Assembly: GCF_006715865.1 (NCBI RefSeq)
Contig: NZ_VFOA01000001.1
Location: 1,550,001-1,614,000 of the forward strand
Reading direction: 5' to 3'
Length of the DNA: 64,000 bases
Origin: Cellulomonas sp. SLBN-39
Lineage (GTDB): Bacteria > Actinomycetota > Actinomycetes > Actinomycetales > Cellulomonadaceae
In this document: positions 61,231 through 61,875 of the stretch, piece by piece
How the letters are laid out: the number at the start of each line of letters is the position of its first letter
Position numbering within the stretch: the first letter of the stretch is position 1
Translations under genes and position numbers: made by a program
Notes under the pieces: model-generated
Told to the model about the DNA's origin: nothing
Database searches by the model: none
The model's input: only the letters and a program-made list of their open reading frames with translations

Positions 61231-61401
61231 ATGGGACTGGACGACAAGGCGAAGCACGCTGCCGAGGAGACCGCGGGCAAGGCCAAGGAGGCCTGGGGCA
61301 AGCTCACGGACGACGAGCGCCTCGAGGCCGAGGGCAAGGCAGACCAGAGCAAGGCCAACCTCAAGCAGGCCGGCGACGACGTCAAGGACGCCGTGCGCTG
61401 A
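61231..61401 (+). CDS. CsbD-family stress protein
   Basis: Fifty-six residues, Lys/Ala/Glu-rich and helical (GLDDKAKHAAEETAGKAKEA, then DERLEAEGKADQ), the CsbD signature. General-stress proteins of unknown mechanism. ATG with AAGGAGG 6 nt upstream; TAGCGT -10-like box at 61169-61174. Followed by a hairpin. Confidence 0.92.
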   Translation: MGLDDKAKHAAEETAGKAKEAWGKLTDDERLEAEGKADQSKANLKQAGDDVKDAVR

Positions 61402-61451: not shown

Positions 61452-61583
61452 GGTGCGTCCGGGGGACCCCGGACGGACCTGTGCACGCTTCCGGCCCGGC
61501 GTGTCGGTCCCCCGTGCGGGTGAATTGGGCGGCGGTCCAGTATTTCCCCGGGTGGACTCTTCCCACGGTCGTCGCGGCCGGGC

Positions 61584-61589
61584 TAGGGT
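61584..61589 (+). promoter_or_regulatory. Promoter of the riboswitch transcript
   Basis: TAGGGT, a good actinobacterial -10, ends 7 nt before the predicted 5' end of the aptamer (about 61597). Confidence 0.55.
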
Positions 61590-61596
61590 CGACGAC

Positions 61597-61675
61597 GTCA
61601 GCGAAACGGCAAACCCTCCGCAAGGCGGGGACGCAAAGCCACGGGACCTACTGGGTCAGCCGGGCTACCGAACGA
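61597..61675 (+). promoter_or_regulatory. Cyclic-di-GMP-I (GEMM) riboswitch
   Basis: All diagnostic elements of the GEMM-I aptamer are present in order: GGCAAACC (61608-61615), the P2 stem capped by the GNRA tetraloop GCAA (CCGCAAGG), GGGGACGCAAAGCC (61627-61640), a P3 arm CGGGACC-UACU-GGGUC, and the closing CCGGGCTACCGA. A weak P1 (UCAGCG with CGAUGA) closes the domain. A GAGAGG ribosome site and a short gene follow within 15 nt, so control of translation is likely. Confidence 0.93.
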
Positions 61676-61688
61676 TGAGAGGTCGATC

Positions 61689-61826
61689 ATGGACCAGCGT
61701 GGATCTGCGGCGGACAAGTCGCGCACCGATCTCCCCACCACCCGCCTGAGCGCCTGGGCCGCCCTGGCTGCCCGCCTCGAGGCGTCCGCGACCATCCCCG
61801 TGCAGCGCGAGAGCATGGCCGCCTGA
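61689..61826 (+). CDS. 45-residue orphan protein under the c-di-GMP riboswitch
   Basis: ATG to TGA, 45 codons, beginning MDQRGSAADKSRTDLPTTR and ending PVQRESMAA, with one amphipathic helix in the middle (LSAWAALAARLEAS). GAGAGG lies 6 nt upstream, immediately after the riboswitch, and a 12-bp hairpin terminator follows 13 nt after the stop. It is therefore the only gene of this transcript. No signal peptide or membrane helix; no family recognised. Confidence 0.75.
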   Translation: MDQRGSAADKSRTDLPTTRLSAWAALAARLEASATIPVQRESMAA

Positions 61827-61839
61827 ACCCAGCACCACC

Positions 61840-61875
61840 CGTCGAGCGCCGTCCCTGCCGGGGCGGCGCTCGACG
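61840..61875 (+). terminator. Terminator of the riboswitch transcript
   Basis: Perfect 12-bp stem CGTCGAGCGCCG (61840-61851) with 61864-61875, loop 12 nt. Confidence 0.8.

Follow-up and report, generated by a model that had tools for sequence, protein, structure and literature searches.

We found that in Cellulomonas a whole transcription unit is given to one tiny protein, and that this unit is conserved genus-wide and beyond. Its frame of 45 codons, which follows a riboswitch aptamer, is a genuine coding gene under selection. The aptamer belongs to a known family; its combination with a solitary mini-protein and with a motif common to three regulators is new. A first-pass annotation of this DNA had proposed the protein as a candidate effector of c-di-GMP signalling. 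This proposal can be sharpened, as the protein carries a short terminal motif that is also present in FliA, WhiG and BldC; ligand and direction of switching remain inference. In the reading that we favour, the riboswitch would determine how much of the mini-protein is made, and the mini-protein would vie with these three regulators for a shared docking partner or take their place there. We prefer this reading only tentatively and would give it somewhat less than an even chance.

A solitary transcription unit conserved in Cellulomonas

The window, i.e. the whole stretch of 64,000 nucleotides that was analysed, comprises bases 1,550,001-1,614,000 of a single-contig genome of 4.15 Mb. The features of the unit are listed in Table 1. 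Upstream of it lie genes for an acyltransferase and a CsbD protein, downstream those for a SHOCT/PLDc_N protein and an LPG-synthase-type membrane protein. The order acyltransferase-(CsbD)-aptamer-peptide-SHOCT-LPG synthase is maintained in many Cellulomonas, and almost all orthologues of the aptamer-peptide unit are monocistronic. A leader peptide of the downstream gene was therefore rejected for the unit in the window, the more so as a hairpin often follows the stop codon in the orthologues.

Table 1. Features of the aptamer-peptide unit and its immediate upstream neighbour (positions within the window)
Feature	Position	Strand	Basis
CsbD-family stress protein gene (small), directly upstream of the unit	61231-61401		Pfam PF05532
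CTTCCC, -35-like promoter element	61559-61564	+	CTTCC(G) and TAATGT separated by about 18-19 nt in orthologous loci
TAGGGT, -10-like element	61584-61589	+	Sequence and upstream regions of relatives (mostly TAATGT)
c-di-GMP-I-GGC aptamer with conserved 5' extension GUCAGCGA	61597-61674	+	RF03167 match 61600-61673
Shine-Dalgarno GAGAGG, about 4 nt from the aptamer	61677-61682	+	Sequence
45-aa small protein MDQRGSAADKSRTDLPTTRLSAWAALAARLEASATIPVQRESMAA	61689-61826	+	Open reading frame, ATG at 61689
Codons 35-40 (TIPVQR), the [VIL]PxQR terminal motif	61791-61808	+	Common to FliA, WhiG and BldC
15-bp G+C-rich hairpin, candidate terminator without U-run	61841-61874	+	Folding versus shuffles, z -6.7

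That such a solitary unit serves a peptide of no recognised family, as the first-pass annotation had it, was borne out across Cellulomonas. Pfam holds no family for the peptide (a single match at chance level among 16 members), which also excludes FlgM anti-sigma-28, and NCBIfam has no matching family either. With both libraries blank no known family could be assigned, and neither the libraries nor the literature that we searched describe this protein family.

The small open reading frame is under purifying selection

Searching with the 45 residues alone gave matches in 58 of the 82 genus genomes. With an alignment of 16 members the protein was found in 79/82 Cellulomonas genomes (one of them marginal) and in further genera of the family; a DNA-pattern search returned named relatives that are almost all Cellulomonas. 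A GGC aptamer lies directly upstream of the peptide in 89 of 90 matches, 81 by coordinates and 8 by inspection, the ninetieth not having been examined. The 76 distinct coding sequences encode 67 distinct peptides. For pairs at 75-97% identity the median dN/dS is about 0.22, i.e. purifying selection, and third codon positions dominate the changes (793, 620 and 2108 at positions 1, 2 and 3). A frame lost to stops or frameshifts behind homologous aptamers had been named beforehand as refuting evidence; instead it is conserved there, and this, together with the dN/dS value and the dominance of third-position changes, places it beyond chance.

It might be argued that the RNA is the product, as a riboswitch-controlled small RNA whose reading frame is incidental or is a leader carried along when the cassette moves before other genes. 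The transcript is indeed short with a strong hairpin at its end, and in two genomes (G000 and G029) the peptide frame lies ahead of a sigma factor gene. We consider this explanation very improbable, as it accounts neither for the dN/dS of 0.22 nor for the codon-position pattern, and almost every orthologous unit is monocistronic, with nothing left downstream for a leader to lead into.

Six residues (M1, R19, W23, A27, P37 and Q39) are invariant in an alignment of 39 rows. AlphaFold2 predicts one main helix (residues 15-34) with a mean pLDDT of 90 for residues 21-30 and low confidence at both ends; in this model R19, W23 and A27 fall on one face. The protein is best read as one amphipathic helix, with R19, W23 and A27 on its face, between a disordered N-terminus and the [VIL]PxQR motif at the C-terminus.

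Aptamer, promoter and mode of control

The absence of a covariance match would have refuted the aptamer, which had been annotated as GEMM-I. A match was obtained: the complete c-di-GMP-I-GGC model (RF03167, positions 1-80) aligns to 61600-61673 on the plus strand with 59.4 bits (E 1.7e-11), the sole Rfam match in the window. The assignment holds for the c-di-GMP-I clan, but the family is the GGC variant and not the main c-di-GMP-I model. With a gathering score of 59 bits the window aptamer barely passes; those of orthologues mostly reach 59-73 bits and those of relatives up to 74. In relatives GTCAGCGA is kept in the 5' region of the aptamer. The G of GGCAAAC and the C of ACCGA are present, which we take to be positions 20 and 92 of Vc2, the guanine- and cytosine-contacting ligand residues, an equivalence that does not rest on a structure alignment. 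GGDEF domains occur in 82/82 genus genomes (15 in the genome of the window), so that c-di-GMP is very probably made. Nevertheless, c-di-GMP as the ligand, its binding, a change in expression and the direction of switching are all inferred.

A -10 box seven bases before the aptamer had been proposed. TAGGGT does stand seven bases 5' of 61597, the first conserved base of GUCAGCGA and probably the transcript start, and most orthologous loci have CTTCC, about 18 nt and then TAATGT at the equivalent position. A generic sigma-70 scan of the start region, however, gave no match, and CTTCCC is not a consensus sigma-70 site. The ribosome site expected after the aptamer was confirmed as GAGAGG 6 nt ahead of the ATG; in relatives the distance from aptamer to ATG is mostly 12-18 nt. 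Since only about 4 nt separate the aptamer from the Shine-Dalgarno sequence, which leaves no space for a terminator, translational control is the simplest mode. This is an inference, as no alternative pairing could be shown. In particular, a conserved hairpin that sequesters the Shine-Dalgarno sequence was rejected: the linker is less stable than its shuffles (-4.4 versus -6.3 kcal/mol) and no platform could be shown.

The hairpin after the frame had been described as a 12-bp structure that ends the transcript. It is strong (-32.8 kcal/mol), but has 15 bp including one G-U, and as no U-run was found behind it termination is plausible, not proven. Among 76 relatives, 59% have a hairpin after the stop codon that exceeds the 95th percentile of shuffles.

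A terminal motif common to the peptide, FliA, WhiG and BldC

The motif [VIL]PxQ is located near the C-terminus in 66 of 67 peptides compared with 1.9% of shuffles. BldC ends in G[VI]PQQR (GVPQQR), also in the solved Streptomyces protein, and WhiG of Cellulomonas carries a conserved GTAPxGVIPQQR or near variant, sometimes twice, in its disordered N-terminus; WhiG is usually not under riboswitch control. In the FliA tails of the family (L357, L360-L407) a conserved extension, GVAERRRQxYFAAVAARA, reaches beyond region 4 and is followed by [VIL]Px[QP] in 44/44 loci (3.5% of shuffles). The strict Q is present in 24 of these 44, about half having P instead; the FliA of the genome of the window has the tail RRRQGYFAAIAARAALAPAAPEGTVPTQR.

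Profile-profile comparison (hhalign) of the peptide with the FliA tail gave P 2.1e-4, over 11 columns only. As single sequences, peptide and own FliA tail are only weakly alike, since 413 of 20,000 shuffles score equally high. Against the BldC profile the PxQR tail alone aligns, without significance (P 0.043), and the peptide as a whole was rejected as a BldC homologue. Outside Cellulomonas the FliA PxQ/PxP motif is found in 8/8 genomes with GGC aptamers and in 0/8 genomes from genera that lack them (Fisher 1.6e-4), a contrast at genus level that is neither phylogenetically independent nor corrected; the FliA helix is widely retained across the other genera of the family. Of the aptamer-bearing genomes, 8 were readable at the WhiG N-terminus and 7 of these have the motif there; among three genomes without an aptamer none has it clearly. 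Judged from sequence alone, the sharing of the motif and its co-occurrence with the aptamer across genera are shown. The motif is short, though, and was recognised after the fact. As a genome-wide DNA pattern VPxQR is common by chance at high GC and not enriched (49 matches versus 65 for the reversed control). A peptide-WhiG fusion was dropped as proof of interaction, since the N-terminus of WhiG has the motif also in genes that lack a riboswitch upstream, which weakens the argument; we retain it as motif sharing.

Possibly the peptide is controlled by c-di-GMP and its partner has nothing to do with FliA, WhiG or BldC, PxQR being a convergence in alanine-rich tails. The likeness of about 11 columns, the weak individual scores and the retention of the peptide in flagellin-negative species would all fit. 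Against this, the motif tracks the aptamer across genera in FliA and mostly in WhiG, and the same riboswitch also drives bldC and, in some species, sigma factors. On balance we regard an unrelated partner as only somewhat less likely than the reading that we favour. A further explanation is that all these proteins share the motif as a signal for degradation or localisation, the peptide being a saturable decoy of a protease or adaptor that, when made, stabilises FliA, WhiG and BldC. The motif is terminal in peptide, BldC and FliA, and 43/67 peptides end in AA, reminiscent of ssrA-type tails. Yet in WhiG it is N-terminal and internal, no link to a protease was seen and proteins ending in alanine are common at high GC. 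Such a decoy thus seems unlikely.

Other genes behind GGC aptamers

GGC aptamers were found in 80/82 genus genomes, usually two in each. Where no strong peptide match follows, bldC lies downstream of 44 of the 52 parsed aptamers; the remainder are found ahead of genes for secreted proteins, for a STAS-like protein, for two sigma factors or for two divergent peptides. This position before bldC in most Cellulomonas suggests that a riboswitch directly controls this developmental regulator. In our literature search no paper was found that joins riboswitch, BldC and c-di-GMP. The genome of the window has four GGC aptamers, ahead of bldC (L001, G000:C1:3225186-3225260), a peptide paralogue plus a FliA-type sigma factor, the unit described here and a secreted protein. 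The second arrangement, i.e. aptamer, a 48-aa peptide paralogue and an extra FliA-type sigma factor (L086/L358, G000:C1:2403085-2404100), recurs in G029 (L293); these extra sigma factors have their own C-terminal tail with GFVPTQ. In G013 and G027 (L217 and L233) the aptamer stands directly ahead of the WhiG orthologue, the N-terminus of which has IPTQR/IPAQR motifs.

In other genera GGC aptamers are followed by peptides with an equal terminal motif and different N-termini, some beside CheY-/CheX-like genes. In genus g9 (L100, L102 and L103) the aptamer-peptide unit is near CheY-like, CheX-like and lipoprotein-like genes. The genus of G156 has up to nine aptamers per genome; two of them, on one strand and about 360 bp apart (G156:C31:119790-119864 and 120226-120300), possibly belong to neighbouring units. 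Large secreted proteins, some with a GTG/TTG start, follow the aptamers at L061, L063, L076, L078, L182, L203 and L215, and a STAS/SpoIIAA-like protein (..HPKFRIWLRQDGVVHLVWAP..), assigned by a look at the sequence only, those at L228 (G079) and L251 (G094).

A possible mechanism

In our preferred reading the c-di-GMP-I-GGC riboswitch at the extreme 5' end of the mRNA would control translation of the one small protein, which would then act in trans, its helix and its PxQR tail engaging a site also used by FliA, WhiG and BldC. The c-di-GMP level could thereby be linked to motility and to WhiG and BldC output in trans. Here c-di-GMP as ligand, the translational mode and the competition at a shared partner are inferred, and the identity of the partner is unknown. 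As FliA ends in like order (YFAAVAARA helix, then VPTQR) and WhiG and BldC have VIPQQR and GVPQQR, the mini-protein, if it acts at this site, most likely competes or substitutes. Whether FliA, WhiG and BldC would be blocked or helped cannot be told from these data.

A strictly flagellar function was rejected. The peptide is retained in 21 genus genomes without flagellin, therefore FliA cannot be the sole target; in such species the docking site would be left to WhiG and BldC. All 82 genus genomes have a sigma factor of the WhiG/FliA class, nearly all of them a high-identity WhiG orthologue. In unicellular Rubrobacter WhiG controls type IV pili and not spores (PMC8325347), so a link to WhiG needs neither flagella nor sporulation. 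The motif shared by the three regulators would suggest that actinobacteria use one docking hub for both development and motility, a hub that apparently is undescribed in the literature searched. That the protein is a soluble copy of their docking motif, by which one RNA sensor resets a c-di-GMP-linked regulator network through an unknown hub, remains possible, but we hold this wider idea with distinctly limited confidence.

Comparison with known systems

Riboswitches for c-di-GMP are mostly located ahead of enzyme, adhesin or motility genes. The aptamer described here resembles its family in the full-length covariance match and the conserved GGCAAACC...GACGCAAAGCC...ACCGA blocks, and differs in that its target is a solitary small-protein gene. 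In the literature that we found, the name c-di-GMP-I-GGC is merely listed as a covariance model. Among proteins, CrsL is a disordered 5.7-kDa protein that binds CarD and RNA polymerase and is encoded in a crsL-otsA operon (PMC12709188). It shows that a very small, disordered protein of actinobacteria can act on transcription and is a precedent for the proposed action; however, its partner is CarD and no riboswitch has been reported. A CrsL-like identity was rejected, as the crsL-otsA context was not seen at the unit in the window.

RsiG is the c-di-GMP-loaded anti-sigma factor of WhiG and binds c-di-GMP by E(X)3S(X)2R(X)3Q(X)3D motifs in a coiled coil (PMC8325347). It is likewise a small actinobacterial regulator that connects c-di-GMP to WhiG-type sigma factors, whereas here the mRNA and not the protein would sense the ligand; the binding motif is absent from the 45 residues, which excludes RsiG itself. 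BldC shares with the peptide the riboswitch family upstream and, with its G[VI]PQQR end, the tail. In its structure (6AMA) alpha3 extends to residue 60, and the contacts listed for the oligomer lie upstream of the tail (PMC5859096). In contrast to BldC the peptide has no DNA-binding winged helix, and it is too short for this MerR-like winged helix-turn-helix family. The FliA/sigma-28 tail of Cellulomonadaceae has the same succession of a YFAAVAARA-type helix and [VIL]PxQR, but in FliA it is appended to sigma region 4, whereas here it is a free mini-protein.
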